DNA of 44,002 bases from a virus. Shown here piece by piece: positions 8,739-42,571 of the stretch. Positions within the stretch are counted from its first letter, which is position 1; each line of letters begins with the position of its first letter. Below the pieces are notes generated by a model that searched no databases, had not been told where the DNA came from, and was given only the letters and a program-made list of their open reading frames with translations. The stretch is from the IMG/VR virus record IMGVR_UViG_3300009034_000080, positions 1-44,002 of that record; one strand, written 5' to 3'. The position numbers and the translations under genes are program-made.

Positions 8739-11700
8739 TTCTCTTCTCCCGGAGCCGGTTTGCTTCTCGCCACTTTCCAGAAATCGGCGGTCGGGCTTTC
8801 CCTCTCGAAAGTCCAAACGCCCTTGAACTTTTCCCCCTTGAACCGAATCTTCATGAATACCGGAGTTTTTTCCAACAGCGTCATTTCGCCTTCATCAATA
8901 CTCTCAATCCATGAGCCGCGCTCCTTGTGCGGGTTGCCGACCTGTCCGGGAACGATAAACCCTTCGGCCTTTTCGTCATGATCGTATTCCGGCGCTGAAA
9001 AATGGCCTGATATGACTTCGGCTTCCAACGGGTCCAAGTCGAGTTCGAAATGCTGCTTCTTTCCGTCAAGCAGGAACAGGTCGAAATGCCACTCCGTCGC
9101 CCCTGCCCTTTTCTTCTCACCGACTTTGGAATACCAGTGGTATTTCAAGGCGAAATTCTTGTTTGCCGCCTCCTGAACGGGGATTTTGATCTCGTCTTTC
9201 TTTATCAGTTCGACAAGCTCGTCCCGAATTAGCAGCGCCTCTTTCGCGGTTTTGGCATTCCAGTATCTCAGAGGCTCCGGTATCGCTTTTCGAATTTCTC
9301 TCGGAAGCGCCGATTTGCCCAAAGGCGGCAGTCGCTTCTTCTTGACTGCCTCGTCTGAAAGGATGTAGGGCATCTGCACCACGGGCTTGATGGCGAACCA
9401 TCGAACCCCAATCGTTTTCTCTTCTGAGGGCGGTAGGATTTTCTGTTCGAGAAGAGGGCATATCTCCCGCTTGACTTCCACCACGAAGCTATCGTCGAAG
9501 TATTTCTGCGGCAGCGCCTCCAGCAGTTCGTGTTTGATGCCCTCCCGCTCCAACTCTTCATCCATTAGAGACTCCGCCAGCATCAAAAGTCTCTTCTCGG
9601 TCTGGCTCAGTTCTCTTGATTCCCCGAATTCTTCAGCGCGTAATTGTCTGAACACCACCCTGTAGTTCAGACCTTTGCCGTGGAAAAAATACTCATGTGA
9701 CCAAGGCTGCTGAAAGCCGTACTCCGCAGTGCCTTTATCAGTGATCACAAATACACCAGGGTAACGTTTCGTCGCTCCGACTTCGCCCGGCTCCACAACG
9801 CCTTGGAAGTCAAGCCATTCAATCGGCTCGGGCGCTTTCTTCTGTGTCATGATGGTCACGTTGACGGGTTTCACCGCACCTTTCTTCAGGCGCTGCGCCC
9901 ACTCGCCGGTCTTCCAGTTGATCTTGAAATACTTACCGGGGTTCCTTTCCTTCTCCCGCGCATCCTGTAGAGTCAGCACGGGTTCCTTCACCACTCCTTT
10001 AATGAGATCATTCAGCGTCCACCCAATCAGGGTTTCCTTCTCCACGCTCTCCATCCGCAAATCCGCATGGCAGCTCTTGCCCCGCCAGTGGTGCTGTGCA
10101 ACGAACTTGTAAGTCTTTTTCTCGTCAGGATAGCGTAGATAAGGGTCTTCCTGCTCCGCTAATAAAATTTCCTGCACCCTGTTTCCCGCAATCGTTTTTG
10201 CGTATGCGGGGTTGCGAATGCGGCGGAAATAATGAACCCTGCTCTTCGTCACGTTCGCTTTGAATTTCTTGACTTCGGACTCCCAATCCGTTTGGTCGTT
10301 AGTGCAGACGACTATGGTACTGCATTTATTAGCCAACTTACCCAAGAGACTGACTATTTGCTCCCGAGTCGGTTCCTTTTGTCTAAATTCTTTTTGCAGC
10401 AGTACGGAGTTGCGAGTTTTGTATTCGGTGAATATCCTGCTGTAAGGCGAACCGCCTGCCTGCGGAGGGTCGAAGAAGATCACGTCGGCCTCGGGAATCT
10501 GCATCTTGAATGCATCATTGCAAGTTACTATGCCCTTGCCGCCCACCTGCTCGACCAGCCTGTTTACTTCCGAGATGGAAGCCCTGAGCATTTGTCTGCA
10601 TTTGTCCTTGTCGTAATAATAGTAGTACGCATCGCGCATACTTGAGTGCCTGCCACCGAAGAACCTGCCGAGAAATGCAACCGCGACTGCGCGGGCAGTA
10701 AGCATCTTCTTTCCGCTGAAACAAGATTCGATATGCAGCATCAAACCGTCCACCCACTCGCGTATGGATTTCGAAACGGGGTGCATCGCTTTGTGCTGGT
10801 TGGTAAACCATCCACGCTTTTCCTTTACGGCCAGCAGAGCGTCGACATCTTCCGCGTTGAGAATTTCACCCTCGAAGATGCCCTTCGAGAACCTGTAGGC
10901 GTAAGGATTGACGTCGTTGGCGGTCACCTTGAGTCCCTTGCGGGCGGCGGCCATCAAAACGGCACTCGTGCCACACATTGGATCAAATATGGTTTTCGCC
11001 GTTGCGGGTAGCCTATTGACAATCGCGTTTGCGAAAGGCCTCTTGCTGAAGGAATAGGCGACTTCCTGAATTTCTTCGTTGGAGGCTTCGATGACTTCGA
11101 AACTTTTCGACTCAAGCAGTTTCAGGTTCTTTATGATTACCTGCGGGCCCCGTATATATTGGTAGCGCCGGGGTTTGTGCCACGGCCAGAACTTGACGAC
11201 GTCGTATGCCCACAACTCTCTCTTGTCAGGCCACCACTTCTTACGTTCCGCATCCGATATTCGATGCTTGTTCCTGAGCGTCTCGAATTCCTTCAAGCTG
11301 ATTTTATATGCGGGTCCGAGCCTGATTGTGCCGTACACCAAATCGGAAGCCAGGAACAGCACCTTGTTGAGCGCATCGAACTCTTTCGACTTCACGACTA
11401 TTTTCTTTTCGCCGTTGTAAATGAGTTCGCCGTGCGGCGGAGTTAAATACATCGCGTCCTTGACGGCGTGGGTATTAACCGAGAGCAAGTCGCCGTCCTT
11501 GGGTATGATTATCTCCTTGTTCGGAAATGCGGTTTCAAGCAATCCAAGTATTTTACGATCATCCATCTCGACGGGTCCCTTGCCCTGATGGATGAAGACG
11601 GCCGTGTGGATCCCTTGGTTCTGACACCACTGGAGCTGTTGCTTCATGGACGCATGCCCGACTCGCTCCTCTTCCGGTCCAGTTCGAAAAATGGGCCTCG

Positions 11701-13933: not shown

Positions 13934-14262
13934 TAAACCCTCGGGATTCTTATCTTCTTGGCGTCGATAGTTACCAGAACGAATTCATCCGCTTTCACGG
14001 CATGTGTGAAAATCTTGTCGGGTGTCAAATCCGCTATTTCAATGGCCTCTTCCAAGGTCGTGGCCGCGGTTTTCTTTGGCGCTGCTGGTGTCTCCTCTTT
14101 CACTTCTGGTTCCGGTTCCGGTGCTGGCTCCTCTCCGTCAACTTCCACGCTCGCCTCTTCTTTTGGCTCGGGTTCTGGTGTGGTAACAGTCTCTTCCACT
14201 TCGATCGCTTCCTCCACCGCCTCACACTTCTCGGGGTCCCATGCTAATCTCTTGTCGTCCAT
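13933..14262 (-). CDS. Small acidic Pro/Glu-rich protein of the head cassette
   Basis: The 109-aa product has a long acidic linker (VEEAIEVEETVTTPEPEPKE and APEPEPEVKEE) followed by a short folded-looking C-terminus (EEAIEIADLTPDKIFTHAVK, DEFVLVTIDAKKIRIPRV). The ATG at 14262 has GGGAGGAATA upstream and overlaps the preceding stop; a longer frame to 14301 is not supported. Both junctions are TAATG, so it is translated between the minor head protein and the giant enzyme. Function unknown; it could be a tether for the giant protein, but nothing in the sequence proves that. Confidence 0.6.
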   Translation of the reverse strand: MDDKRLAWDPEKCEAVEEAIEVEETVTTPEPEPKEEASVEVDGEEPAPEPEPEVKEETPAAPKKTAATTLEEAIEIADLTPDKIFTHAVKADEFVLVTIDAKKIRIPRV

Positions 14263-15155
14263 TATTCCTCCCATTCCGGGTGCAGGTACATCACCCTGCA
14301 CCTGCAGTTGATCACCTGCTCCGGCGGCCCGCCCGGGTCGCCGGGAAATTCCAAAGCAGCGCCACCCACAATAAAAGGCTCCTCGATTGGAATTGGATTG
14401 TCAGGCCCGAACTCCACGCCCGCATCGGCATGGGACGGCCGCACCCTCTCATCTCCCGCCGTCAGCCACCACTTTCGCAATCCCGGTCTTTTCTTTTCAA
14501 CCTGCTCTGCCCTCTGAGCGGTTCCGACCGAGAACGCCCTGTTGACTTCCGTGTTGAGAATGGTCTCCGCGCGGAAGCCCGTACCGATCAGCCTTCCTTT
14601 CCGGCGAACCGGCGACACCCACTTTTCTATTTCGTCTATAGCTTCTTCGGGGCGTTTCACGCCCAAAGCAACTTGCCCGATTTCCGTGTTGATTTTTTTG
14701 CGCGCCTCTTCTGCTACCTCAGAAATCAGATCTGCTGAAAAAGACCGCAGCAGAACCAACTGCTCCTTCGTCAATGCGGGCAGAGGCGGCAGCTTCACCT
14801 TGAACTCCGCCGCCAGCGCCTTGGGAATCTTACCGCCCATCGCGTATGCCTTTTCCTGCTGTACGCTCACCGTGTCAAGCAGCCTTTCCTCGAAATCCCG
14901 CAGGTGCTTCTCGACGTCGGCCTTCAGCGCCCTCAGAGAGCGGGCGCGGTATCTCTTTGCGTCGACCATTTCGCCGCTGATCCTCTTTCCGAGCGTCTTC
15001 AAGAACCGAATCGCTTTTTTCAGCGCGTCCTTCGTCAGCTCGTCCACTTCCTTCGTGGCCCGCTTAACGCGGCGCTTGAACGCCGCCCTTCGCTTCTCTA
15101 CTTCTTTTTTCTCTAACTGCTCAAGAAGCAAAATTACGCAACCTCTTTGCCGCAC
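14262..15155 (-). CDS. SPP1 gp7-like minor head protein
   Basis: The 297-aa protein has the C-terminal signature of the Mu F / SPP1 gp7 family: WWLTAGDERVRPSHADAGV, a PGDPGGPPEQ turn and NCRCR. The first 150 residues are charged helices. These proteins bind the portal and few copies enter the head. The start is uncertain: GTG at 15155 overlaps the portal gene, and a TTG at 15131 has AGAGG about 10 nt upstream. The C-terminus is followed directly by the acidic protein. Confidence 0.85.
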   Translation of the reverse strand: MRQRGCVILLLEQLEKKEVEKRRAAFKRRVKRATKEVDELTKDALKKAIRFLKTLGKRISGEMVDAKRYRARSLRALKADVEKHLRDFEERLLDTVSVQQEKAYAMGGKIPKALAAEFKVKLPPLPALTKEQLVLLRSFSADLISEVAEEARKKINTEIGQVALGVKRPEEAIDEIEKWVSPVRRKGRLIGTGFRAETILNTEVNRAFSVGTAQRAEQVEKKRPGLRKWWLTAGDERVRPSHADAGVEFGPDNPIPIEEPFIVGGAALEFPGDPGGPPEQVINCRCRVMYLHPEWEE

Positions 15156-16467
15156 GGAAATAATTGTCCGAGGCCGTTGGCATCCCTTCGGGCTTTTCTT
15201 TCTTGAATCTCTCGAGCTCGAACCCGAACTGCCCCATCATAAAGTTGAAGAAGGCCGCCGCAGTCTCGTCTTCCACCCAGTCGTTCTCCCGGGCGATCAT
15301 CAGAGCGTTGGTCACCTTCACGAGGAAGTCCGCCTGCTGCGGCAAGTCCCTTTTCAACGAAGCGATGTTTATCGAGAACGAAGTGTTGACATCTTCGGGA
15401 AGTACCTTGTGGAGAATCGCCTGATCGATGACGAACTGGAATATTCGGCGGAACATGTGCTTGAAGAACTTCTGCCTGGTGCTGAGGCGCTTCAGCGTCG
15501 GCACCGACATCTCACCCGCGGTCGCTTTGTTTGTGAATCCGCCTTCGGACATCCAAGTCTCGGGCGTGCCCGCGCCGGTCAGGATGTGCTGACGGATCAT
15601 GCGGGCCTCTTCCATCGCGTCCGAGGCTTTGAACTCCGGGACTATGGCGTTCCAAGTCACTTTCTCGTTGTGGGCGCGGATGGAGCCGGGTTTGGGCTTG
15701 CGGTTCTTCTCCAAGAAGTCTTTGATCTCTTGCGGGCCTGCACCGTCGAGCATGACGTCCCATATGTGCATGTTCCGGAGTTGCGCGTTTTCCAACCGCG
15801 TGTACAGGAATTCGTCGTAGCCCTCGATCCAATCAATCAGCGCCAGAACGTCCGAGTGGCCCCGTGTCGCATTGGTCACCTTGTTGACGGTGAAGAAGAA
15901 GGCGTCGCCCGTCAGCCTTCCGAAAGAGTCGCTGTACGGATTCTCATCGCGCCGGATGACAACCAACTCTTCCTTCTCGGAAACCTGCCCGTTCTGTTTC
16001 AGAACCAGTTTGTCTGGCACGTTTGCGTTTCTGGGAAGGGGCTTGACTTGCTGAATCTGTAGGGAATCCACCGTTTCCAACCTGACCGCCCCGTTGAAGG
16101 GGTTCACGGTCGGCACGTAGGCCTGCTCGCCGTTAAGAGCAAGTTCAAGCGCCATGTTGAACTGGCGGAGATCCATGTTGTTAATCTCATCATCCCAGAA
16201 ATTCTGCAGCACTTTCTGCACCCCGGGATCGACGGCCTTGAACGAAATCCCGTCTCCGACCGCGAAATCCTTCGAGAGCTCTATCAGCCGGAAGCAAAGC
16301 GGGTTGCTGAGGTACAGGTAGTATGCTATCTTCAGGTGCCTTTCCCAGAGGTAGGGCAGCAAGTCCTTTTCCACCTTGCCCAGCCTGCGGTAAAGGTGTT
16401 CGTCCTTGTCTATCAATTCCCCGAACTCGGCGTCCTGCTCCCGGAGGCCCGTTTCGGATTCCGCCAT
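15121..16467 (-). CDS. Portal protein
   Basis: The protein is about 448 aa, right for a portal, and lies between terminase and the minor head protein. It has the typical pattern: N-terminal helices, YYLYLSNPLCFRLIELSKDF, then WDDEINN and LALNGEQAYVP, and the late helical region with TGAGTPETWMSEGG. The portal ring forms the DNA channel and the packaging motor dock. I prefer ATG 16467 (AGGATTAAGAAAATG) over the TTG at 16494, which sits right against GGAG with no spacing. The 3' end overlaps the next gene. Confidence 0.87.
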   Translation of the reverse strand: MAESETGLREQDAEFGELIDKDEHLYRRLGKVEKDLLPYLWERHLKIAYYLYLSNPLCFRLIELSKDFAVGDGISFKAVDPGVQKVLQNFWDDEINNMDLRQFNMALELALNGEQAYVPTVNPFNGAVRLETVDSLQIQQVKPLPRNANVPDKLVLKQNGQVSEKEELVVIRRDENPYSDSFGRLTGDAFFFTVNKVTNATRGHSDVLALIDWIEGYDEFLYTRLENAQLRNMHIWDVMLDGAGPQEIKDFLEKNRKPKPGSIRAHNEKVTWNAIVPEFKASDAMEEARMIRQHILTGAGTPETWMSEGGFTNKATAGEMSVPTLKRLSTRQKFFKHMFRRIFQFVIDQAILHKVLPEDVNTSFSINIASLKRDLPQQADFLVKVTNALMIARENDWVEDETAAAFFNFMMGQFGFELERFKKEKPEGMPTASDNYFRAAKRLRNFAS

Positions 16468-16497
16468 TTTCTTAATCCTGCCCGCCACCCGCAACTC

Positions 16498-23927: not shown

Positions 23928-24266
23928 CTAACTCCTTTCTGTTTCCGCCCCGACCGCCTCAAGCGCGGCCATAGTTATTTCGCACGCGGCTTCAGCAACA
24001 TTGAGAAGCGTGATATTGCGGATGCAATGATAAAAAGCGTCCTGAAAATTCGACCAAACATCGTGCTTTTCTTCGCAGTCATCACCAAAATTCTCCGCTA
24101 TTTTCTCCACCAGCATCCAAGCATCGTCGAGGCTGGTGAGCGGAGACCAAGAATAATCACCAACACCGGGACGGCGCACAAGAATGCAAGTTGGCGTAAT
24201 TGCTTTAACTACTTCCCACCCCATCACCCGCGTCGCCGCGAATTCCACAAGCTTGGTGTCAGTCAT
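23928..24266 (-). CDS. ABA-sandwich-like phage protein
   Basis: The 112-aa protein has the pattern of small phage ABA-sandwich proteins: a tryptophan strand (VMGWEVV), WSPLTSLDDAWMLVEKIAENF, and a final AACEITMAALEAVG helix. The ATG overlaps the upstream TAA (TAATG). It shares pattern with the genes at 24475 and 24773. Confidence 0.6.
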   Translation of the reverse strand: MTDTKLVEFAATRVMGWEVVKAITPTCILVRRPGVGDYSWSPLTSLDDAWMLVEKIAENFGDDCEEKHDVWSNFQDAFYHCIRNITLLNVAEAACEITMAALEAVGAETERS

Positions 24267-25904: not shown

Positions 25905-26143
25905 TGCTTGCCGCCTTTCACCAAGCCTTCTCCGATTCTGAGAACGCGCCCTCTTTCAATCTCAGCTTGCATGTAGGGGGGAATTCGCGCATCCTTTTTG
26001 AAGATCCAGCAACAACAACCATTGTGATACCGCGCGCTATCATTCAATGTCGGACACGCCTCTTCCCATAGTTGTTCAGGCGTTTTCGAATCTCTAATTT
26101 GCATTTCGGCCTCGCCCATCAAGCGAAAACAGTCGCCCCTCAC
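25901..26143 (-). CDS. Hypothetical 80-aa protein (start uncertain)
   Basis: GTG at 26143 overlaps the upstream TGA; an ATG at 26104 has GCGAGGCCGAA upstream and would give 67 aa. The core has CCCWIFKKDARIPPYM. Not recognised. Confidence 0.5.
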   Translation of the reverse strand: MRGDCFRLMGEAEMQIRDSKTPEQLWEEACPTLNDSARYHNGCCCWIFKKDARIPPYMQAEIERGRVLRIGEGLVKGGKQ

Positions 26144-26589
26144 TCCTCACCGCCTTTCCCACACAGTTCCCGCCACGCCTTGCGGAGCGCGTTCATCAGG
26201 GGGCGCTTGCGCCCCTCCATAGTTGGACGAAAAGGACTTCTTCGTTCGTAACAATCAGGCGTGACACAGCATCTTCCGCAATCTGGGAGCTTGTTGTGTT
26301 TTTTCCATCTATAGCGAAGGCAGAGGGCACAGGTACGATTGTCGTTTCCGAGAGACCATGACCTATTGCCGAAGATGCTTTTTCGCGGTCTATTCGCCCG
26401 CCACTTCAAAAAAGTGAGCAACAGGGCTTCCTTTTCCGTCCCTCGATATTCCCATAGTGCAATCAGCAGTGCGTTCCTGTCTTTTTTGCAGACGGCATCT
26501 ATCGCCGCTTGCGCCTTCTTCGTGAACTTCTTGATGCCCGCTTCCTCACGCAGTTTCTCGGCATACGCCCTGATTTGCTTCTCGGTCAT
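26140..26589 (-). CDS. Hypothetical basic protein with cysteine motif (149 aa)
   Basis: ATG at 26589 has GGGAGG 8 nt upstream. Residues about 1-70 are helical (MTEKQIRAYAEKLREEAG); about 85-120 hold CALCLRYRWKK and CGRCC, a likely zinc site, and the end is basic. It is the first gene after the repeat region, and one 22-bp repeat lies 18 nt upstream of its ATG, so it may be controlled by it. Confidence 0.5.
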   Translation of the reverse strand: MTEKQIRAYAEKLREEAGIKKFTKKAQAAIDAVCKKDRNALLIALWEYRGTEKEALLLTFLKWRANRPRKSIFGNRSWSLGNDNRTCALCLRYRWKKHNKLPDCGRCCVTPDCYERRSPFRPTMEGRKRPLMNALRKAWRELCGKGGEE

Positions 26590-26980
26590 TTCTGCAGCCT
26601 CCCAACAGTTATAGGTTTTTCCCCAATTCCATTGCACTTGTGCCGCTATATAGGGGTATGGGTAATAATTTCCCCAATTAATTTACACGTGATGATACAC
26701 ATACCAATAATTAGATTAATTTTTATAATATATATATATTGTATCTGAGAAGAAAATCGGTCAAACCGCAACCAAAACCCGCCCGCGCAGGGACTTGCGA
26801 AAGTAAAACGCGCAATGGCCCTCCGAAAATTCCGATTTTTGGTTATAAGTATTTCCCCAATTTTGGAGAAAATTGGCGGAATTAGACTAATTCTTACGGG
26901 GTTTGGAGTTGGACGAATTCTTACCCATCCGGGCGATATGCATAACTTGTGCATGTTTTCAGCCCCGTTAGTTATAAAAA
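26590..26980. other. AT-rich non-coding region with repeat array (candidate origin or operator)
   Basis: No gene is supported over about 390 nt. It contains seven 22-bp repeats, a TATATATATA stretch (26727-26739), a CCAATTTT GGAG AAAATTGG hairpin (26857-26876) and an ATGCA/TGCAT palindrome (26938-26954). The make-up fits a replication origin or a multi-operator control region. Confidence 0.55.
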
Positions 26981-26991
26981 TTAGTCCAACT
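26607..26991. repeat. Seven diverged copies of a 22-bp element (iterons or operators)
   Basis: Copies: 26607-26628 (-), 26658-26679 (-), 26709-26730 (+), 26841-26862 (-), 26880-26901 (+), 26907-26928 (+), 26970-26991 (-). Examples: AGTTGGACGAATTCTTACCC (copy 6) and AATTGGGGAAATTATTACCC (copy 2). The first three start exactly 51 bp apart. Copy 5 begins with the palindrome AATTAGACTAATT. Most pairs agree at 14-18 of 22 positions. Confidence 0.7.
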
Positions 26992-27193
26992 TCGCACCGC
27001 AACAGTAGCACCAGAAGCCGCTGGCGCGCCTGCCGAGAAAGGAGCCTTGGATCAGATCACCGACGCGCGAGAGCGTGTAAAAGCAGGTCCCGGCGAAGAG
27101 TCTCGACCCGCACGCGCCGCAGGTGATTACTTGTTCTTGCCGAACTTCATCCCCGGGAGTTTCGGCTTGTCGAGGTTCACCGCCTCCTTCCAA
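26981..27193 (-). CDS. Zinc-ribbon ORF with no clear start
   Basis: The C-terminal 48 residues (CGACGSRLFAGTCFYTLSRV, later WCYCCGAKLD) form a convincing zinc ribbon. The frame overlaps the 27127 gene, and no ATG or GTG is near the domain; a TTG at 27193 is the only candidate. It might be reached by frameshifting from the upstream gene. Confidence 0.35.
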   Translation of the reverse strand: MEGGGEPRQAETPGDEVRQEQVITCGACGSRLFAGTCFYTLSRVGDLIQGSFLGRRASGFWCYCCGAKLD

Positions 27194-27345
27194 GCCTCCT
27201 GGGTCTGCTTGATTATCTTCCGCAGGAGGCGCTTGTACCTCCGGCACGCCGAGCGATTCCTCTTCAGGAAGAACGCCCTCGCCTCCATCTCCGCCATCGC
27301 GACCAGCCTCTTGATCTCGTGCCACTTCGTGTCCTCCAAGTTCAT
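27127..27345 (-). CDS. Small basic helical protein (72 aa)
   Basis: ATG at 27345 with GGAGAGGAAAAC upstream, overlapping the upstream TGA. The protein is lysine/arginine-rich (SACRRYKRLLRKIIKQTQEAW) and could bind nucleic acid. Not recognised. Confidence 0.55.
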   Translation of the reverse strand: MNLEDTKWHEIKRLVAMAEMEARAFFLKRNRSACRRYKRLLRKIIKQTQEAWKEAVNLDKPKLPGMKFGKNK

Positions 27346-27578
27346 GTTTTCCTCTCCAGCTTACGAACCTTTCCTTCCAAGCGAGTCACTTCCCTTTCAA
27401 GCGCGTCCTCGCGGAAATTGATTTCCTCCTCGCCGTGTTCGATGCAGAGCACCTGTTCACAGTCCTTGATGACCTGCGTCTCCGTCATGGGGTTGATGGA
27501 CCTCCCGCACCTCTCGCAGCAGGGATGCTTCGTGGGCGACACGTAGACGTTGTTGTCGGGACTTATGAATTCCCACAC
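27342..27578 (-). CDS. Zinc finger plus coiled coil (78 aa)
   Basis: CCERCGRSI and CEQVLCIEHG give a zinc site, followed by a coiled coil (REDALEREVTRLEGKVRKLE). GTG start behind GAGGGGGG. Function unknown. Confidence 0.55.
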   Translation of the reverse strand: MWEFISPDNNVYVSPTKHPCCERCGRSINPMTETQVIKDCEQVLCIEHGEEEINFREDALEREVTRLEGKVRKLERKT

Positions 27579-28031: not shown

Positions 28032-28592
28032 TCATCCTCCTCTCCTGTAATTCCTAATCCTCAAAGATCGAACAACGAAAGGCGGGCGCACCGCCGCGCA
28101 CATTTCTTCCGCGGCTCTGAGCGCCGTCAGTATTCTCCTGCGGGGCTCCATTCTTTTCGTGGCGGCCAGAACGCCCAACGCGAAATCCCCTCCGGCACCG
28201 CAGGCTTCGAACTTTCTTCTCGAACTGAGCACCTGGAAGTCATCCACGTCCACCAGAAACAGGCGTCCGTAACAACCCACCAGCAGCTTGCCCTTACTCC
28301 TCCTGACCTGCTCCAAGCATCCGTCGGCCTTGAAACAATCTTTCAAAGCATCCACAAAATCCCTCGCCATGAATTTCAGGGGCGATTGGCGGGATGGTTT
28401 CGGGGGGGCCGCGAACTTGTACTTCAGAAGCTGTATGCCGCGGAAGAGGAAGGCGACCCCGAACAGGTACTCGCCTTTGCGAAAGACCTTCCGCTCCCGG
28501 CTGATGAGGAAGGAGTGCGCGTCGTCAATGCCGATGGAATCCCCGCCCATCCATACTCTTCCTCTGGAGACGCACGCGGTTATGCACGTCAT
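28032..28592 (-). CDS. HslV/proteasome-like Ntn peptidase
   Basis: The 186-aa protein begins MTCITACVSRGRVWMGGDSIG, matching the start of HslV and proteasome beta subunits. After removal of Met, Thr becomes residue 1, with D17-S18 and a lysine at about 34 completing the usual T-D-K set. A later GAGGDFALGVLAA matches the conserved GGG..A strip. These enzymes form rings that cut peptides; no HslU partner is visible, so the host unfoldase or a stand-alone role is possible. Confidence 0.72.
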   Translation of the reverse strand: MTCITACVSRGRVWMGGDSIGIDDAHSFLISRERKVFRKGEYLFGVAFLFRGIQLLKYKFAAPPKPSRQSPLKFMARDFVDALKDCFKADGCLEQVRRSKGKLLVGCYGRLFLVDVDDFQVLSSRRKFEACGAGGDFALGVLAATKRMEPRRRILTALRAAEEMCAAVRPPFVVRSLRIRNYRRGG

Positions 28593-28870
28593 TCTGCTCT
28601 CCTCTTCAGCTTCTCTATTACTTCGCCGAGTTCGGTGCCGCCTTTCTCTTCGTACTCCCGCAGCGCCGCTTCCGCTTCACGCGCCCAGTACCCGTCCTCT
28701 ATCGCGCCGCGTTCGAGGCGGCTCATGGTGACGGCATCGAGGCCGAAGTGTTTGCCCCACCGGCGTAACGTGACGCCCATCGCGAGCCGCAACAGGCGGA
28801 GCTGCTTCCCTGCATGATTGTAAGCTTTGCACAGGCGTTCCGCTGGTATGGAATTTTTACATTTGCTCAT
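28589..28870 (-). CDS. XRE-family helix-turn-helix regulator
   Basis: The 93-aa protein has an XRE-type HTH at about residues 24-56 (LRLLRLAMGVTLRRWGKHFG, then TMSRLERG). It is coupled to the peptidase gene by ATGA. It may act on the repeats at 26.6-27.0 kb or on the phage promoters; no direct evidence. Confidence 0.7.
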   Translation of the reverse strand: MSKCKNSIPAERLCKAYNHAGKQLRLLRLAMGVTLRRWGKHFGLDAVTMSRLERGAIEDGYWAREAEAALREYEEKGGTELGEVIEKLKRRAE

Positions 28871-29384: not shown

Positions 29385-30518
29385 TTAAGAAATTTCATCG
29401 GGCATTAGCACGCAGAAGTGCTCCGCATCGAACTCCAACAAGGCGGGTGAGGAGTCGTCTTTCATTTTCACAATCACCGTCTCCTCGGTTCCGGAACCGA
29501 GAATCTCAAGCAGGTAGTTCGAGTTGAAAGCAATCTCAATATCCTCCCCCTTGTACTCCACGTCCGCCTTGACGGACGCCGCGCCCACATCCGGCGATCT
29601 CGACGATAACAGCATTGTAGAACCTTCGATGGAAATCCTGACCGTTGGCGGGGATTCCCCGCAAAGGCATGCTCGCTTGACCAACGAGGCGAAATCCGCG
29701 GGGTCGATTTTCAACGTCTTCTCGAAGCTCTTGGGAACCACCGCCTGCCAATCCGGGAAATTGCCCTCGATTAGTCTTGTATGGAATGATAAAGAAGAAC
29801 CCGTGACGGAGAAAACGTTCTCGGTAATAGAAACTTCGAGTTCGCCCTCCGCTTCCTTCAGGACACCCGCAAGCAAAGTCAGCGCACTCGCGGGCACGAT
29901 GCAGTCGAATTCTCCGGTCTCGGAGTCCGTTTTCAAAGAGGTATATGCGAGCATCTTCCCGTTAGTAGCAACAAGACTGGTTCTGCCCTTGCTAATGGAG
30001 AATTGCGCTCCCTTCAACGCGTACCTGGTGTTCTCGGCGGAAGCGGCAAAAGACGTCTTTTCAATCAGGATGCGTAGTTCCTTCGCGTCCATTTCGATTC
30101 GCTTGCCATCTTCGGGTTCGATGAAGTCCGGAAAATCTTCCGCGTTTTCGCCCAGCAAATCGAAGGAATCCCGCCCCGCTTCGACAACCAGTTTGCCATC
30201 ACGCTTGCTCAGAGTTACGGCCTCTGTAGGAAGGCTGTTGATGATGCTGGAGAGCAGATAGACGGGCACGACCGCTTGACCCTTACCGGTAGACTTTACG
30301 TCGACTTCCAATCGGAGGCTCGTCTCCATGTCCGTGCCCCTGATACTGATTGCCTTCTTATTCCAATCCAGAAGCACGCAGGAGAGAATCGGTCTGAATG
30401 ATTTCCGAGGGCAAACCCGTGCGACCGCTTGAACGGCCTTCAGGAACTGTTTCCTGTCGATTTCGGCCCGTGGCGGTTTGTCGGCACCGCTCTTTTTCTT
30501 TTTCGCTGCCTTAGACAT
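29385..30518 (-). CDS. dnaN: DNA polymerase III beta subunit (sliding clamp)
   Basis: The 377-aa protein has the three-domain clamp layout: FLKAVQAVARVCPRKSFRPILSC in domain 1, GENAEDFPDF at the domain border, LVATNGKMLAY and RLIEGNFPDW in domain 2, and FNSNYLLEIL and VLMPDEIS at the end of domain 3, like the bacterial VLMPMR tail. It encircles DNA and tethers the polymerase. ATG 30518 has AAAGGAGACTCG upstream; the longer frame to 30593 overlaps the clamp loader gene. A basic tail (SKAAKKKKSGAD) precedes domain 1. Confidence 0.9.
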   Translation of the reverse strand: MSKAAKKKKSGADKPPRAEIDRKQFLKAVQAVARVCPRKSFRPILSCVLLDWNKKAISIRGTDMETSLRLEVDVKSTGKGQAVVPVYLLSSIINSLPTEAVTLSKRDGKLVVEAGRDSFDLLGENAEDFPDFIEPEDGKRIEMDAKELRILIEKTSFAASAENTRYALKGAQFSISKGRTSLVATNGKMLAYTSLKTDSETGEFDCIVPASALTLLAGVLKEAEGELEVSITENVFSVTGSSLSFHTRLIEGNFPDWQAVVPKSFEKTLKIDPADFASLVKRACLCGESPPTVRISIEGSTMLLSSRSPDVGAASVKADVEYKGEDIEIAFNSNYLLEILGSGTEETVIVKMKDDSSPALLEFDAEHFCVLMPDEIS

Positions 30519-31194
30519 CGAGTCTCCTTTCTCTGAAGTCAAACTCGCTTGTGAAAATTCTCCGTTTCGAACTGCCAGGCTGCAAGAGTTCATCCTGCAA
30601 AAGCTGGAGGGCGGTTCGCATATTGCTTTGACATCTGTCCCTCACCAGCTTGGCAAGTTCTTTCGCCCGGAAGTTCGGGTGTCCCTCAGCCGCCGACACT
30701 TTCTGCAGTAGTGCCCTGATCTCGGGGACGCTCGGCAGGCTGAAGGGGAGCTCCGTGCACCTGCTTCGCCAAGTCCCTGGAAAGGAATCGGGTTCGGTGG
30801 TCGTGAAGAGTAGTATTCTTTGGGGCGGGATGCGCTCCAGCAGACTCAGGAACGATCCCTGCGCTGCGGGCGTGATTGTGTGCGCCTCGTCGACCAGCCA
30901 GAGTTTATGCCCGCCGGGGGACCAAGAACAAATGTGCATGGCTTCTTGAATGCCGCGGACGGTTTCCACGCTGCACGTCTGCGAAAGCACTTCGAAATAG
31001 TCCATCGGATGGATGTCGAGCTCGCCGCAAAGGGCGGAAGCGAGCGAAGACTTGCCGGTGCCCGACGGACCGGAGGCGAGATAGGCCCCGTCTATCTGTC
31101 CGGAGGCGAGGCGGGAGCGCAGGAGGGACACGACTTCTTTCTGGCCCATCATCTCGTCAAGACATTTCGGGCGGTATTTGCGGTAAAGCTCCAA
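30511..31194 (-). CDS. Clamp loader AAA+ ATPase (DnaX-like)
   Basis: The 227-aa protein starts ELYRKYRPKCLDEMMGQ, has Walker A GPSGTGKSS (about 43-51), Walker B LWLVDEAH and an SRC arginine finger. These features match gamma/tau clamp loader subunits, but the C-terminal oligomerisation domain is short. It should open the phage clamp and load it. TTG start with GGGAGATGAC upstream. It overlaps the clamp gene by 8 nt. Confidence 0.85.
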   Translation of the reverse strand: MELYRKYRPKCLDEMMGQKEVVSLLRSRLASGQIDGAYLASGPSGTGKSSLASALCGELDIHPMDYFEVLSQTCSVETVRGIQEAMHICSWSPGGHKLWLVDEAHTITPAAQGSFLSLLERIPPQRILLFTTTEPDSFPGTWRSRCTELPFSLPSVPEIRALLQKVSAAEGHPNFRAKELAKLVRDRCQSNMRTALQLLQDELLQPGSSKRRIFTSEFDFRERRLDV

Positions 31195-32143: not shown

Positions 32144-32874
32144 TTGTGCAATCTCCTCTCCGCAGCCGATTTCCTTTTCGCCGTCTTCCTTGCAAATAAC
32201 TCCCGCTCCCATTCGTCGAACTCAAGCCAAGTCCCCGGCTCCACGGGGCTCAAAACTCCGACGACCCTTTGGTGAGTCTCCGCGACCTTGGTCCGAATCA
32301 GGATGGCTTCTTCGCCGGAACCCACCTCCAGAAACAAAGGCTGCTTGCCTCGCCTGCCAGTGACCTTTTCAAGGGCGTCCACCATTTTCTTGAGCGATGC
32401 GAGCGAGACGCAGACTCGCCTTCTGTTCTCACCGATTCCCCTGAGTATCGCCGTTATACTTTTGCTCGGATAATTCACATGCGGATCCGGGCGGGAAGCG
32501 CGATCGGCGGCTACGCCGTCGGGAGTCGTGGAGAGTTCGATGGTACTGCCGCACTCAGTGAGGACAGCACATTTATGGATTGCGCGGTAAGGTTTGGACG
32601 GCAGATTTCTGAGCGCCTTCTCCACTACCGCATGGGGAATTCCGATGCCGCTTGGTTGTATTCGGGCCGGGTGCACCGCATCCACGCCAAAGCTTTCGAC
32701 TTGGGCATCGACGGGTGAGACCAGCAGGAGCATCTTGCCGTCGGTCGAAAGAGTGGACCCGTCCTCGGAGAGGAAGACGCAGTCGTAACCCTTGCGCTCC
32801 TTGTCTTTCTTCGCAAGATGGACCACGTTCAAGTTTGCTTTGGTTAGGAGCAACAGGCTACTCCACAGAGTCAA
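32140..32874 (-). CDS. Second sliding-clamp-like protein
   Basis: The 244-aa protein has VFLSEDGSTLSTDGKMLLLVSP, the same turn as the clamp's LVATNGKMLAY, then SKSITAILRGIG, RRVCVSLASLKKMVDALE and RTKVAETHQRVVGVLSPV, as in DnaN-like repeats. It is shorter than a full clamp (two rather than three domains) and lacks the usual C-terminal tail. TTG start overlapping the upstream TGA; alternative starts cannot be excluded. It might be a clamp decoy, partner or accessory factor. Confidence 0.6.
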   Translation of the reverse strand: MTLWSSLLLLTKANLNVVHLAKKDKERKGYDCVFLSEDGSTLSTDGKMLLLVSPVDAQVESFGVDAVHPARIQPSGIGIPHAVVEKALRNLPSKPYRAIHKCAVLTECGSTIELSTTPDGVAADRASRPDPHVNYPSKSITAILRGIGENRRRVCVSLASLKKMVDALEKVTGRRGKQPLFLEVGSGEEAILIRTKVAETHQRVVGVLSPVEPGTWLEFDEWERELFARKTAKRKSAAERRLHK

Positions 32875-33452
32875 GACGTTTTCTGCTTTGCTCTAAGGAA
32901 CTCTTCTGCTTCTTCTGTTACGTTTGAGAATCGTGGACGGTATTCTGGATCATAATCCGGGGACGATCTGTTAAGTGCCGCGAAATCTACCTGCCAAGCT
33001 CGGTGTTCATTGAGAACTTTCAAAAGCATTTCTTCAGTGCGGTTCTTTTCCTCCTTCAACTGTGAAAGTTCTATGTGTACAATTCGGCAAGTTTCAGGAT
33101 TCGCGCACCACTTAAACTCCGTTCCAATGCCTTCGCAACTTGCAACGGGCTCATAAGTTGCTTTGAAAATATCCGGTTTGCAGGGATAGAGTTCACCTTC
33201 TATGCCCTTGATAATCCAGTCTCCCCAAGTAACAATATGGGCGCCCTCAAGCGTTCCGAGATAAAGTTGCTCAGGCACCCATTCGCCTATCGTTTTAGAA
33301 GGCGGCTCTTTGTCGCACCAAAGTCCTCCTTCACCAGCGCCTTGCTGCCATGCTTCATGCAACCAGTTAGGCCATTCTGAATTATCCCATCTGCGCTCTT
33401 TCGTCATCTGGAACGCTTCAATAATCACTGGCTTTTTCCTAAACTTAGACAT
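32871..33452 (-). CDS. Conserved phage protein (GDWIIKG family)
   Basis: The 193-aa protein has MSKFRKKPVIIEAFQMT and HIVTWGDWIIKGIEGELYPC, the signature of a widespread phage family of unknown function. Residues after 120 form a helix-rich extension. ATG 33452 with GAGGAGGATGCA upstream. Confidence 0.7.
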   Translation of the reverse strand: MSKFRKKPVIIEAFQMTKERRWDNSEWPNWLHEAWQQGAGEGGLWCDKEPPSKTIGEWVPEQLYLGTLEGAHIVTWGDWIIKGIEGELYPCKPDIFKATYEPVASCEGIGTEFKWCANPETCRIVHIELSQLKEEKNRTEEMLLKVLNEHRAWQVDFAALNRSSPDYDPEYRPRFSNVTEEAEEFLRAKQKTS

Positions 33453-34144: not shown

Positions 34145-34167
34145 ACTTATGTCCTCGTCTGTTGCGC

Positions 34168-34195
34168 ATTATACACAGGCGCAAGGAAAAGTCAA
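34168..34195 (-). promoter_or_regulatory. Sigma-70-type promoter P3
   Basis: TTGACT (34190-34195), 16-bp spacer and perfect TATAAT (34168-34173) on the minus strand, 24 nt before the ATG of the 33464 gene. A palindrome ATTTTCCTGAAAAT (34201-34214) lies just upstream of the -35. Confidence 0.75.
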
Positions 34196-34264
34196 GGACT
34201 ATTTTCCTGAAAATTCTGATAACCTAATAAATGACAAATAGGGTCTCATTATCTGAATCTCCAT

Positions 34265-35926: not shown

Positions 35927-36714
35927 TCAAATAAACTCCTGCATCCCTTCTTGTACTCTTTCAGACTCAGACTTTTCTTAGCGGCCCGCACCCTGTCCGC
36001 GGCGAGCTCGCAGTATTCGCGTGATATTTCGATGCCGATGAAGCGGCGGTTGAGCTGGACGGCGGCGACCGCGGTCGTGCCGGAGCCGAGGAAGGGGTCG
36101 AGGATAAGTTGCTTTTCATTCGACAATATAGTTACCAGTTTGCCGAATAATCCTACTGGTTTCTATGTAGGATGTATCGGTATGTGCGCTCTGTTACATC
36201 TGATTGTATTTGGTGACGCCCCACCGCCATTCCAAATATACCTCCGTTTGGTTGCAAAAGATGCCATCTCTATTGTATTGACAAAATTACGTCGAGGGTT
36301 TATACCACCATCCCCTTTATACCAAAAAAGATAATGTCGGAAATGATAATTTGCTTTTTGCAATTCTTCATGCACCGTAGTTGCATGTTTTTGGTCATGG
36401 AACATAACTAAAGAAGTGGCATCTATCAATTTCACCCAAGTATGGTCAGCAATCAAATCCCAGTCACCGTAATCTGGTTTGCAAATCCCATCATTACGTA
36501 ATTGCACTTTACCTGTTCCATCACCAACGAGGCCATACGGCGGATCCGTCAGCACCAAGTCCACGCTCTTGGCCGGGAACTTCGGCAGCACATCCCGGCA
36601 ATCCCCGCAGATAATCAGCCCGTCTGGTTCGTCGTACACAATGTCGCCGTGTCTAAATGGAATACGCCAGTCGGCCTTTCTTACCGCTGCCGTTTTTTTC
36701 TTAATTTTGCCCAT
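35923..36714 (-). pseudogene. DNA methyltransferase interrupted by an in-frame amber codon
   Basis: N-terminal part (36163-36714) has CGDCRDVLPKFPAKSVDLVL and DPPYG; C-terminal part (35923-36162) has DPFLGSGTTAVAAVQLN and GIEIS. They are in the same frame, split only by TAG at 36163-36165. The TAG stands exactly at the glutamine of the conserved HPTQKP motif (HPT*KPVGLFGKLV). One C to T change would give it. It could be a recent nonsense mutation, a suppressed stop, or an assembly error. ATG 36714 with GAGGATAA upstream. Confidence 0.75.
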
Positions 36715-38717
36715 TTATCCTCTTCCCTGTAAATATCCGCTTCCTTCACCAGTCGCTTGATTCTCGCGGAGAGCTTCCACATCTTCTCCTGGCTTTTCAC
36801 AACCTGCAGTAACGCCAAGTCCTCCAAGATGATTTGCGTGGAATTGAAATCGAAGTGCGTCCCCTGCGAGATTTCCTGTATAGAAGTGCCGTCCGGATGC
36901 AGCCACAAAAACTTGACGATCTCTTCGCGCCTGTCCTGCGCTGTGTTGCGAGCCACCCGCGTAATGATGTTGTAGATTTCATTGGTGAGTTTGGGCTCCT
37001 CCCGGAACGCGGCAATGCCCATGCCGAGCTTGGTGAGTTGCTTGGCGAGCCGGGTTCCCACTTCGGCGGATGGCTTAATCTTGATTTCCCGCGTATACTT
37101 TTCCCTGACTACAGCGCCCCGCAAGTTCGCCACCCACTGCGCGAGCGGGATTATTTTCTTTCGCCAAGCTTCATCCGGTTCGGGCACCGCGCAGGAATCT
37201 CTGTCAACCACGTAGCCCGCCACTTGCTGCAGCTCCTCCCGCATCTCCTCTTCCCTGTTGATGTTGCTCAAAGCCCTGCGAATCAGCGTTTTGCTGCCGG
37301 TGATGAGAGGCATGTCCCTGACATTGAACTTCAGGAACCGCTCGCCCAGCATCGTGTCGTTGAAGGCGTTGATGGCGTGCGTGACGCCCGCGATTATCCC
37401 GAACTTGCTCTTGTACACGCGAGTGCCGGTGCCGAAAACCCGTTTGCACTTGCCGTCGTAGGCGTCCCTCAGCGTCCCGAAGATTTCCTCCCTCGCGGTC
37501 TGGTTCAGCGACAGGATGGTCGTAAAGTCCTTAACGACGAGAACCTTGCCATCCAATATCGGAATCAGCGAGGGATCGGCCCCGCCGCTGGCGTAAGAAC
37601 CGCTAATAAGCGCGGCGGGTGTCAACGACGATAGGGTTTCGATGTATTCACTTTCGGACAGCGACATCAGGAGTTCGGTCTTCGTGCCGCCCGGAGGCGC
37701 GACGATGAAAATCCAGAGCGGATCGCCGCTGAGGAACCTGTTTGCGAAAATCGTCCCGAAGAGGACGTCGAGCACTTCGGACTCGGGAAGGTACAGCCAT
37801 TTTTGGAATGTTTTGATGGTCTCTTCGCGGCTGGTTGCCTTTGTTCTCTTCTGGGCGGCGGGTTTTCTTTTGGCCTGTCGACTTTTCTTATCTTCCGGGA
37901 ATTGTGGGAATTCTTCCGTCAGCAGGGATTGGAGTTGTTTCCAACCTCGCAGAGGTTTCTTCCTGTTCTCTTGGTAGAGGTCCCTGAGATCGTATTTCGG
38001 CGGAGAATCCGCAGGCCACTGCACGTATTGTATCTTTCGAACGACGGGCGTGAGCACTCTTGTGGCTCGTTCCGCGCCTTCCTTACCGCTCTTGTCATAA
38101 TCGTAAGCGAGCACTACTTTGCGGCTGATGAAGAAAGAGTTCCACTTCTCCGGAAACGAGTTCGCCCCGGGTACGCCCACCACATCCGTATTTCTGACCT
38201 TGGCTCTTTCGATCCACTCCCTGAGCGCGAGCACGTCCCAATGGCCTTCGCATACCCACACAAGGTTCCTGCTGCTCAGGCGCTCGTTTCCGTATAGCGC
38301 CGCCTTGCCGCCTTCGGAAGAATAGAGCTTTCGCGTTCTGATGTTGTATCTTCTCAGGTTCACGAGCTTGCCATCGCAGTATTCGGGAAGGGTGTACTCC
38401 CCATCAAAGTAGCCGATTTCCGCATCCCTGAGCGTGGACACCAGCAAACCCCTGTCCGAGGCGAGAGCCTCCAGGGCTTCGCCGAGCGCGTATTGCTGGT
38501 TGCGTTCCGAAATTGCGGAAAGAAAGTCGAAGTATCCCCCCTGCTCCCCGCACACCCAGCACTTCCAGGCGTAGTTCTCGGAGTGCACGTAGAACTTATC
38601 CCTGCGCCCGCAGAACGGACAAGTCCCCACGCCGTTTTCGCCGGAAGTCTTCGTGAAGTCTACTCCGTGAACGGCGAAACGTTTCAGCTCTTTTTCGAAT
38701 TCGAATCCTGTAGACAT
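36681..38717 (-). CDS. Primase-helicase fusion protein
   Basis: The 678-aa protein has a zinc-binding CPFC/CWVC (33-36, 53-56), a TOPRIM domain with CEGHWD (E157) and YDYDKSG (206-211), a linker rich in K/R (280-297), then an ATPase with Walker A PPGGTKTE (341-348) and Walker-B-like VLVVKDF (392-398). The C-terminus looks like a winged helix (TSIQEISQGTHFDFN). It should make primers and unwind or recruit at the fork. It overlaps the dNMP kinase gene by 34 nt and the methyltransferase by 34. Confidence 0.83.
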   Translation of the reverse strand: MSTGFEFEKELKRFAVHGVDFTKTSGENGVGTCPFCGRRDKFYVHSENYAWKCWVCGEQGGYFDFLSAISERNQQYALGEALEALASDRGLLVSTLRDAEIGYFDGEYTLPEYCDGKLVNLRRYNIRTRKLYSSEGGKAALYGNERLSSRNLVWVCEGHWDVLALREWIERAKVRNTDVVGVPGANSFPEKWNSFFISRKVVLAYDYDKSGKEGAERATRVLTPVVRKIQYVQWPADSPPKYDLRDLYQENRKKPLRGWKQLQSLLTEEFPQFPEDKKSRQAKRKPAAQKRTKATSREETIKTFQKWLYLPESEVLDVLFGTIFANRFLSGDPLWIFIVAPPGGTKTELLMSLSESEYIETLSSLTPAALISGSYASGGADPSLIPILDGKVLVVKDFTTILSLNQTAREEIFGTLRDAYDGKCKRVFGTGTRVYKSKFGIIAGVTHAINAFNDTMLGERFLKFNVRDMPLITGSKTLIRRALSNINREEEMREELQQVAGYVVDRDSCAVPEPDEAWRKKIIPLAQWVANLRGAVVREKYTREIKIKPSAEVGTRLAKQLTKLGMGIAAFREEPKLTNEIYNIITRVARNTAQDRREEIVKFLWLHPDGTSIQEISQGTHFDFNSTQIILEDLALLQVVKSQEKMWKLSARIKRLVKEADIYREEDKWAKLRKKRQR

Positions 38718-39226
38718 TGCAGCATCCGTTTCACCGAAGCCCGGAGTTCATCAAGCGAGCCATCATTAACAATTTGATAATCCGCAACTATCCCATCCTG
38801 TTCCGTTTCGGATTTGTGGTCATCGCCCTTGAAACCTGGCCGGATAACCCTGACTATTTTGAAACCCATTTTTCGTAAATGTTCCTCTTCATTTAGATAG
38901 CGGCAATCGTCAATCACGATTGGCTGATTCGGATTGTATTCGTCGTCGAACTCCGATTCCTCCAGTTCCCTCTGAAATGCTCGAATGAAAACCAGTGGGT
39001 CTTTGCTTCTAAGATACTCGCCCAATGCTTGCATCAGAGTCCGCGATTTGGGCGATTTCCGAGCCGAATAAAAATCTTGCGTATCATAAGGCAATCCCTC
39101 AGACGCCAAGCCCGAAATCAATGCGCCTTTCAGCGGTTCCGCGAGGTTGTAGAGCCAGCAGCGGGGAATGAACTTCGCGCTGGAAGTCTTTCCAGAATTC
39201 TTTTTGCCTGTGAAAGCTATTCGCAT
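38684..39226 (-). CDS. Deoxynucleoside monophosphate kinase
   Basis: The 180-aa P-loop protein begins MRIAFTGKKNSGKTSSAKFI, then PIVIDDCRYLNEEEHLR, as in phage dNMP kinases (T4 gp1 type). It would supply dNDPs for phage DNA synthesis. ATG 39226 with GGAGG 8 nt upstream. Confidence 0.78.
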   Translation of the reverse strand: MRIAFTGKKNSGKTSSAKFIPRCWLYNLAEPLKGALISGLASEGLPYDTQDFYSARKSPKSRTLMQALGEYLRSKDPLVFIRAFQRELEESEFDDEYNPNQPIVIDDCRYLNEEEHLRKMGFKIVRVIRPGFKGDDHKSETEQDGIVADYQIVNDGSLDELRASVKRMLQCLQDSNSKKS

Positions 39227-40626: not shown

Positions 40627-40844
40627 GTGAGTGCTTCTCCCTTCTTATGTTTCAACCAGTATTCTGCGGCTAACGGAAAAAATGAAGTAAGGCATGTAGA
40701 ACAAGTTTGCTTGCATTGTTTCTGACATTCATTGCACGCACACTCACTGACCTTCCCATCCATCGTCATCATCTTTCCGCAAATGGGGCATTGAATTTTA
40801 TTGGGCGCTGCGCATTCAAGACCTCCACTTTCTTCTCGCATCAT
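40623..40844 (-). CDS. Multi-cysteine zinc protein (73 aa)
   Basis: CPICGKM, then CACNECQKQCKQTCSTCL: about nine cysteines, probably two zinc sites. ATG 40844 in an ATGA overlap with the polymerase gene. Not recognised. Confidence 0.55.
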   Translation of the reverse strand: MMREESGGLECAAPNKIQCPICGKMMTMDGKVSECACNECQKQCKQTCSTCLTSFFPLAAEYWLKHKKGEALT

Positions 40845-42571
40845 ATCTTCACTTCCTCCTTCTCGCTCCACCTCTCCTGGCTAATCTTGCACTCGACTTT
40901 GAGCGGCACCGAGAACTGTGGGAAATCTTCCATCAAGTCTCTTATGCCTCGCAGAATTCCTTTCTTGTCTTTGAGCACTTTCGGGATTTCGATTACCAGC
41001 TCATCGTGTATTGGGAATATCAAACGCGCATCCGCCCCGACCTTTTCTAAGTAACTATGGATGCGAACCTGCGCCCGCTTGATGATGTCCGCGCCCGTGC
41101 CTTGAATCAGATAATTGACGCCCACGTAAGGTTTGTTCGGGTTGACTTTGATTTTTCTTCCGAACTCCGTCGTAACGCTTCCTTGAGAGCGCACCTGCGC
41201 GGTCAAGCGCTTGGCCATCGTTCTCGCTCTCGGAAATCTCGCATCGTAATCTTTCAGCCTCATGCGCATCTCGCCTTCGCCCAGACCCAACACCTGCGCG
41301 ACTTTGCGAGCGCCCGCCCCGTATCCGAGAGCGAAGTTGGCGTTCTTGGCCGCATCCCTATACCGTTTCTTGGCCGCTTTGGTCTTGCCGTAGAAAACGA
41401 CGGCGGCTTCGTAGTGCGCATCTCCGTTCGCGAGCAGTATTCTTCGGAACTCTTCATCTTTGTGGTAGTGCACAAGAAGTCTCAACTCTTCGCCCGCGTA
41501 GTCGAAATGGTAGTTCTCGTATCCCTCCCTGGGCGTGAACAGCCTGCGCGCGGCGACCGGGTATGGGTTCAACAGGACTTGCTCTTTCGAGACGTTCATC
41601 AGGTTCGGGGTAGTGCACGCCTGCCGCCCGGTGTCCGCGCCCGTCAGGAGTATGTTGGGGTGTATGATATTGTCTTCGCCCGCGAAATCCAAGTAACCCC
41701 TTATGATTGGAATGGCTTTCGAGTAGCTTCGGTATTTCAACAACGTGTTTATTATCTTGTGCTTGCCTCTCAGTTGCAGCAAGACCGGCTTGCCGGTGCT
41801 CGGCTTGCCAGTCGGCGTTCTTTGCAGCACGGGAAGATGAAGATTGTCGAACAGAATCCGGGCGAGTTGCGGATGCGAGTCAACGTCGAACCGTCCGCCC
41901 GCATACGCCCAGAGAAGATGCTCCAACCGCTTGCAATCCTGCGCAAGCTGTTCGAGCATTTTCTCCGTGGCTTCGGGGTTGAGGCGCACGCCCCGCTTTT
42001 CCATAGCCATTGTCGGCCTTATCAGTGCTATTTCCGTATTGTAGGCGTCGAACGCCCCTTTGTCTTTCTGTATCTCCTTCCACCAGAGAAGGAACAGCAG
42101 CATCGTCCGCTCCGCGTCGTTGGCAGCGTACTCGTCCATCTCGTCTTGGGGCACTTTCGAGTAATCCACGCCGTGACCCTTGACGGCGACTTCGTCCTCC
42201 CTCGTGTACCCGCACAGCACCCAGCAGATGTGCTTCAGGGCGTGGGAGTGCGCGAGATTCTGGAGGATTCTGGACATGGCGAGCGTGTCGTGGATTTCGC
42301 CTTTCATTCTCCTTCCGAGAAAGCGCTCGGTGAAAGTCAAGTCGAACTTGGCGTTGTGGAATATTTTCGCCGTGTTTTCGTCGAGCCAGAGGTTTTTGAG
42401 TTTGCGCGTGTTCAACAAACGCCGGGTTTTCGGGCCGTCGATCCTGCGGGCGGACTTGAGTCCCTCGGTCGTGCAGGTGGAGTAGCAGAACATCCGGTCG
42501 CCGTCGTAGGGGCGGAGGCCCGTCGTTTCGGTGTCGTATGCTATGTACTGTTTACCTGAAGAGGTCTTCAA
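40841..42571 (-). CDS. Family A DNA polymerase with 3'-5' exonuclease
   Basis: The 576-aa protein has exonuclease motifs YDTETTGL (about 12-19), FHNAKFDLTF and YAANDAERT, then polymerase motif A FDYAGEELRLL (in place of DYSQIELRLL), motif B AAKNANFALGYGAG and motif C IHDELVIE. There is no 5' nuclease domain. It is the replicative polymerase and probably uses the phage clamp. TTG start at 42571, overlapping the methyltransferase gene by 20 nt; its ribosome binding site is weak, so translational coupling is likely. Confidence 0.9.
   Translation of the reverse strand: MKTSSGKQYIAYDTETTGLRPYDGDRMFCYSTCTTEGLKSARRIDGPKTRRLLNTRKLKNLWLDENTAKIFHNAKFDLTFTERFLGRRMKGEIHDTLAMSRILQNLAHSHALKHICWVLCGYTREDEVAVKGHGVDYSKVPQDEMDEYAANDAERTMLLFLLWWKEIQKDKGAFDAYNTEIALIRPTMAMEKRGVRLNPEATEKMLEQLAQDCKRLEHLLWAYAGGRFDVDSHPQLARILFDNLHLPVLQRTPTGKPSTGKPVLLQLRGKHKIINTLLKYRSYSKAIPIIRGYLDFAGEDNIIHPNILLTGADTGRQACTTPNLMNVSKEQVLLNPYPVAARRLFTPREGYENYHFDYAGEELRLLVHYHKDEEFRRILLANGDAHYEAAVVFYGKTKAAKKRYRDAAKNANFALGYGAGARKVAQVLGLGEGEMRMRLKDYDARFPRARTMAKRLTAQVRSQGSVTTEFGRKIKVNPNKPYVGVNYLIQGTGADIIKRAQVRIHSYLEKVGADARLIFPIHDELVIEIPKVLKDKKGILRGIRDLMEDFPQFSVPLKVECKISQERWSEKEEVKI

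Follow-up and report, generated by a model that had tools for sequence, protein, structure and literature searches.

The question raised by this locus is what function is served by a 22-bp motif that occurs in seven copies, four on the plus strand and three on the minus strand, at 26608-26992 of the window, by which is meant the whole stretch of DNA analysed here, 44,002 nt long, from a virus record of 44,003 nt that is classed as linear and is probably a fragment. A preliminary description of this DNA, whose span of 26607-26991 for the repeats is correct to within 1 nt and whose seven copies in both orientations are recovered at four plus-strand and three minus-strand starts, called them an “origin or operator array”. 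This proves to be the right pair of readings, with the origin favoured and the operator a close rival.

The seven 22-mers were aligned by anchoring on TCCAA, which yields the consensus nTTATAAGAATTnnTCCAATTn. Site a (GTTATAGGTTTTTCCCCAATTC, plus strand, 26608-26629) scores 24.1 bits with the PWM built from the alignment and 17.2 bits in leave-one-out scoring; the corresponding values are 25.0 and 18.8 bits for site b (TGGGTAATAATTTCCCCAATTA, plus strand, 26659-26680), whose centre is 51 bp from that of site a, and 26.1 and 18.9 bits for the inverted site g (ATTATAAAAATTAATCTAATTA, minus strand, 26708-26729), whose centre is 51 bp from that of site b. Farther along lie site c (GTTATAAGTATTTCCCCAATTT, plus strand, 26842-26863; 28.3 and 24.4 bits), site f (CCCGTAAGAATTAGTCTAATTC, minus strand, 26879-26900; 23.9 and 16.1 bits), site e (TGGGTAAGAATTCGTCCAACTC, minus strand, 26906-26927; 24.6 and 18.6 bits) and site d (GTTATAAAAATTAGTCCAACTT, plus strand, 26971-26992; 28.0 and 23.8 bits). 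Any two copies are identical at 11-19 of the 22 bases, and two subtypes can be distinguished, with TTTCCCC in sites a, b and c and TTNRTCY in sites d, e, f and g.

When the model is rebuilt without one site at a time, just 6-8 of the 87,962 places in the window score as high as or higher than the omitted site, a count that includes the site itself and its sister copies, so that a model made from any six of the sites finds the seventh. The sites score 23.9-28.3 bits, and outside them the highest score in the window is 14.9 bits, at 24188, which bears out the earlier statement that this is the only such array present. Comparison with shuffled sequence had been named as a check on the array, and in this comparison the copy number was never reproduced: within 7 mismatches, six copies are observed in 26590-27010 against at most three in dinucleotide shuffles of the same DNA (0 of 100 reach six), while at 6 mismatches four are observed against at most two, and at 8 mismatches six against at most five. 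When the window is divided into 218 overlapping stretches of 421 bp, six copies are reached in the array stretch alone, and 215 have three or fewer. The existence of the array is thereby confirmed.

The right part of the motif resembles a dyad, AATT-5-AATT, with a best column complementarity of 0.61 (p 0.016 against permuted columns), and site f contains a perfect dyad, AATTAGTCTAATT (7/7). This modest evidence, drawn from the letters of the sites, suggests that the motif may be bound by a dimer. The ATG of the downstream gene occupies 26589-26587 on the minus strand, and site a, the copy that had been reported 18 nt before this ATG, does start 18 nt upstream of it, with GGGAGG between, and ends at the Shine-Dalgarno region of the gene. 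At the other end, site d overlaps the TAA of a reading frame ending at 26981. That frame (26981-27325) overlaps the gene at 27127-27345 and ends in a zinc-ribbon-like peptide of the form CxxCG...CYCCG, with its TAA within site d; near its conserved part, a good start codon was not seen.

The AATT centres of the sites are at 26617.5, 26668.5, 26719.5, 26851.5, 26890.5, 26917.5 and 26980.5, and the centre-to-centre distances are thus 51, 51, 132, 39, 27 and 63 bp, in agreement with the report that the first three copies are exactly 51 bp apart, the third of these being inverted. The sites show no helical phasing (period 10.5 bp: p 0.68). All of the spacings are, instead, multiples of 3, and the sites keep a common 3-nt phase (p 0.0012; six periods were tried), which leaves a stop-free minus-strand frame in the gap. 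Read leftward from 27011, this frame meets its first stop, a TAG, at 26646-26648 and then continues to a TGA that overlaps the next ATG, and it includes a stop-free run of 110 codons, a length matched in 18 of 1000 shuffles. The common phase and the open run are what could be said for regarding the copies as chance matches or as remnants of coding DNA. That explanation is nevertheless highly improbable, given the significance of the sites, the codon score of the frame (-0.14, compared to 0.1-0.65 for most genes) and the flat GC content of its codon positions (0.39/0.42/0.37, compared to 0.55/0.41/0.64 in 24 genes); codon usage and codon-position GC likewise rule out the gap as coding DNA.

The gap itself (26590-26980) is 391 bp long and has an AT content of 60%, compared to 47% in the window. 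It is the longest internal gap of the ORF map; the longer ORF-free stretch at 1-1369 is the contig end. Whether the 44 kb is scanned in stretches of 40, 60, 100, 150 or 200 bp, the least stable one falls within or overlaps this gap. The least stable 40 bp, at 26706-26745, have a mean duplex stability of 0.900 kcal/mol per step, 5.4 standard deviations below the mean for all 40-bp windows (1.456, sd 0.102), and are a candidate DNA unwinding element. They take in the TATATATATA run mentioned in the preliminary description, which begins at 26729, and they are flanked by the sites, with a, b and g on one side or at the edge and c, f, e and d on the other. The hairpin with an 8-bp stem that had also been mentioned is a perfect inverted repeat, CCAATTTT-GGAG-AAAATTGG, at 26857-26876, where it overlaps site c. 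Next in order of instability in the window is another AT-rich gap, at 34145-34264 (120 bp, 62% AT), which has no copy of the motif. Scans of 26400-27400 found one weak terminator-like site, on the minus strand at 26791-26778 (1.0 expected), and, with a sigma-70-like consensus, no promoter on the minus strand and one on the plus strand (0.7 expected by chance). Two other kinds of element were considered for the gap and set aside. Matches to the DnaA box consensus amount to only three, each with one mismatch; as for structured RNA, the window has no Rfam match, and the minus strand of 26560-26990 folds only slightly better than shuffled versions of it (z -1.67), 9 of 100 of which do as well.

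The array stands between two blocks of genes. All 63 ORFs assigned, which were chosen from a mechanical ORF list, are read leftward on the minus strand. Genes of replication type lie at 29-44 kb and encode a sliding clamp like the beta subunit of DNA polymerase III (29385-30593; phrog_947, E 5.2e-69), a clamp loader (30511-31194), a 678-residue primase fused to an AAA-like ATPase (36681-38717), a dNMP kinase (38684-39226) and a family-A-type DNA polymerase (40841-42571). Virion genes, at about 5-20 kb, include those for the portal (15121-16494), a head morphogenesis protein (14262-15155) and the major head protein (6345-8816). Between the virion and replication blocks are small genes of mostly unknown function, and the array has the early block on one side of it and the small-gene block on the other, the first gene downstream of it (26140-26589) encoding a Cys-rich protein of 149 residues with no family match. 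Elsewhere in the record, ORFs 36163-36714 and 42552-43934 match DNA methyltransferase families (phrog_67), and the product of 28032-28592 is HslV/proteasome-like (phrog_1040, E 1.5e-12), with 42% identity to a protein of Moorella phage MTATph1.

The reading to which we give most weight, at a little short of an even chance, is that the array is the replication origin of the phage, composed of iterons and an unwinding element. Its starting points are directly observed: seven sites that cluster at a single place in the window, a minimum of duplex stability that lies between them, and replication genes in the same record. The locus has the clustered sites of initiator size and the adjacent, easily melted AT-rich element that characterize iteron-type origins. 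We infer that a phage-encoded initiator, for which the primase-ATPase is the candidate, would bind the seven 22-bp iterons, which lie to either side of 26706-26745, and would wrap or loop the DNA, so that this AT-rich segment melts; the primase-ATPase would then enter at the melted element before the polymerase and clamp of the phage take over. The origin is favoured because the window-wide stability minimum falls inside the array and the record carries a replication gene set, and this coincidence of a unique array of protein sites with the stability minimum, in a record with replication genes, is the strongest single fact in the analysis. Support also comes from the confinement of seven significant sites to one gap, from the lack of a sigma-70-like promoter on the minus strand of 26400-27400, and from the extension of the primase into a region that aligns with the AAA ATPase of a protein from locus L176, described below. 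Moreover, one origin fits better than a regulon, since there is no copy of the motif anywhere else. Against the origin, no initiator or helicase loader was recognized among the proteins of the record and the primase gene is about 10 kb off; the sites lack the helical phase of the iterons of plasmids; and promoters, too, typically lie in AT-rich DNA between genes. The cumulative GC skew, about which the preliminary description had asked, does not turn at the array and is negative on both sides of it, which again counts against an origin, although a skew turn, while frequent at origins, is not defining for phages that replicate in one direction. An origin here would offer an experimentally tractable point of replication start in a phage lineage for which this analysis found no cultured relative, together with a specific candidate for the initiator.

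It is also quite possible that the array is a cluster of operators, at which a phage HTH factor, XRE or other, would bind as dimers to imperfect dyads and would repress or activate the leftward block of small genes and virion genes that begins at 26589, several sites permitting looping and graded control. The array is directly upstream of the first gene of that block, and its placement before the Shine-Dalgarno region and the dyad-like cores, which are of the sort found in dimer-bound operators, are explained equally well by an operator as by an origin; operators would also account for sites that are out of helical phase, and a gene for an XRE-like protein lies 1.6 kb upstream. The absence of a recognizable minus-strand promoter leans the other way, with the proviso that host promoters may differ, as do the absence of copies at the XRE gene or at other gene starts and the number of sites, seven over 385 bp being many for one promoter; these checks are weak ones. 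An operator array would mark the switch between the early and the later gene blocks, and on either reading the locus is a compact, well-defined, putative protein-binding region of a kind already known.

The two functions might be combined if transcription through the origin fired or licensed it and a single protein acted as both initiator and autorepressor. There is a precedent for such a protein in the iteron plasmids, and the anatomy would be the same as for an origin or an operator alone; we regard this combination as unlikely, nothing here separating it from the two simpler readings. Slightly less likely still is some other multi-site element, such as a partition centromere or the arm sites of an integrase or end sites of a transposase. 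Elements of these classes also hold several sites of 10-22 bp in both orientations, but no ParA/ParB, integrase or transposase was found among the proteins scanned, an absence that carries little weight in a record that is a fragment.

The primase (36681-38717) matches CHC2 and Toprim_2 above the Pfam cut-offs (Zn_ribbon_DnaG 29.3 bits, Toprim_2 27.6 bits), and over 636 columns it is 27% identical to a protein of locus L176 whose second half has a clear AAA match; the same locus encodes, just before its primase, a polymerase with 25% identity to that of the window. The ATPase half of the window's protein has a degenerate P-loop (APPGGTKT) and no AAA match of its own, and this second half has no match in 50,697 phage records. 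Near residues 596-643, both the primase and the L176 protein give weak, sub-cutoff Pfam hits to small families of DNA-binding, winged-helix type (two, E 0.14 and 0.09). The full 678-residue structure model has a mean pLDDT of 34 and is unusable; a model of the C-terminal 103 residues reaches 66, and Foldseek matches nothing to it with an E of 0.001 or lower, a second look giving only helical bundles and no winged helix. That the winged helix depends on two sub-cutoff hits, with no such match from the fragment model, weighs against the origin reading, although the structure prediction by itself speaks neither for nor against such a fold. Of the “primase-helicase” in the preliminary description, the primase domains therefore stand, as does an AAA-like half by alignment with the L176 protein, while its DNA-binding domain is putative, and an initiator like P4 alpha is a lead, rather than a result, taken from protein sequence comparison. 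A fuller version of this proposal would give the task of reading the seven iterons to the C-terminus of a fused primase and AAA ATPase whose lineage has no sequence relationship to P4 alpha; a single polypeptide would then recognize, open and prime the origin, in a phage that also has its own clamp, clamp loader and polymerase. We consider this version doubtful. The alternative candidate binder is the XRE-like HTH protein at 28589-28870, which matches HTH_31 with E 1.7e-4 and 22.3 bits, below the cut-off of 27; the PWM scan of the window found no copy of the motif at its gene or at the start of any other gene.

If it is an origin, the array would work like known iteron systems and would belong to a known kind, with a putative binder. 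The lambda origin has four iterons, which lie inside gene O. It is described, in the passages cited here, as a dyad-like iteron array beside an A+T-rich region, with O bound as dimers (PMC5043065), and the same passages state that plasmid iterons are usually in helical phase. The window likewise has dyad-like sites beside A+T-rich DNA, but there are seven of them, and they are widely spaced, non-coding and not beside an initiator gene. In SPP1, gp38 binds oriL and oriR, which are described as direct repeats next to an AT-rich element that unwinds, and oriR is situated among the late genes with transcription signals on either side (PMC6316719). In the window, too, repeats adjoin an AT-rich element, a candidate for unwinding; here, however, the sites are in both orientations, and no gp38, gp39 or DnaB-type helicase was recognized. 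P4 alpha, as outlined in the cited part of PMC4234260, combines a Toprim primase with a helicase and binds origin repeats through a winged helix. The window's protein also has a primase part and, by alignment, a putative ATPase part, but the repeat is a different one, the ATPase half is without a match in the phage records searched, and the winged helix is seen only below cut-off. For a phage satellite (PLE RepA), gel shift confirmed an origin that contains semi-palindromic iterons (PMC7145576). On the side of repressor sites, the portion used of PMC6550527 describes the stoperators of cluster A mycobacteriophages as 13 bp long, present in up to about 30 copies per genome, spread along the genome and mostly in one orientation. 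Both cases have many copies of one asymmetric site in one phage, a repressor site in cluster A, but here all seven are in one gap and in both orientations.

Conservation of the array, the other check that had been named for it, was looked for among relatives of the phage, of which none found carries the genes that flank the array. The region 26140-27345 has no match in the 50,697 phage records. Protein scans of viral_contigs found 40 loci for the major head protein and one for the primase, and none for the clamp, the downstream gene, the polymerase or the HslV-like protein; in genome_contigs the clamp has one weak match (33% over 86 residues, E 7e-6). The clamp and the downstream gene were not found in 21 of 21 head-protein relatives, where an empty answer is no proof of absence. 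The nearest relatives found, G001 and G002 (IMG/VR, 62 and 68 kb), have most of the virion genes in common with the window, with top hits at 35-66% identity, and share none of its early genes except 32871-33452, part of which has a match in G002 with 63% identity. The fetched pieces of these two contigs and the other fetched loci yielded no cluster of the motif. In the 59 fetched loci, once the window's own array (L001) is set aside, the PWM exceeds 15 bits at three single sites, in L005, L010 and L044, the best being the 15.8-bit match in L044; the L005 site was inspected and dismissed as a lone match. In DNA pattern scans of viral_contigs (IMG/VR), one form of the site gave 0 matches and the other form 110 stretches, of which 80 are among the matches listed. 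The stretches fetched contain no cluster like that of the window; what they do contain, in contigs low in GC, are isolated pairs or sets of three matches that overlap. A pattern allowing two mismatches gave 3 single matches in 29 records, compared to 5 for a reversed control pattern, and these were put down to chance. The start of the G001 contig (L042:1-140) has a different tandem array, made up of AAAAGTGAC units with a 28-bp period.
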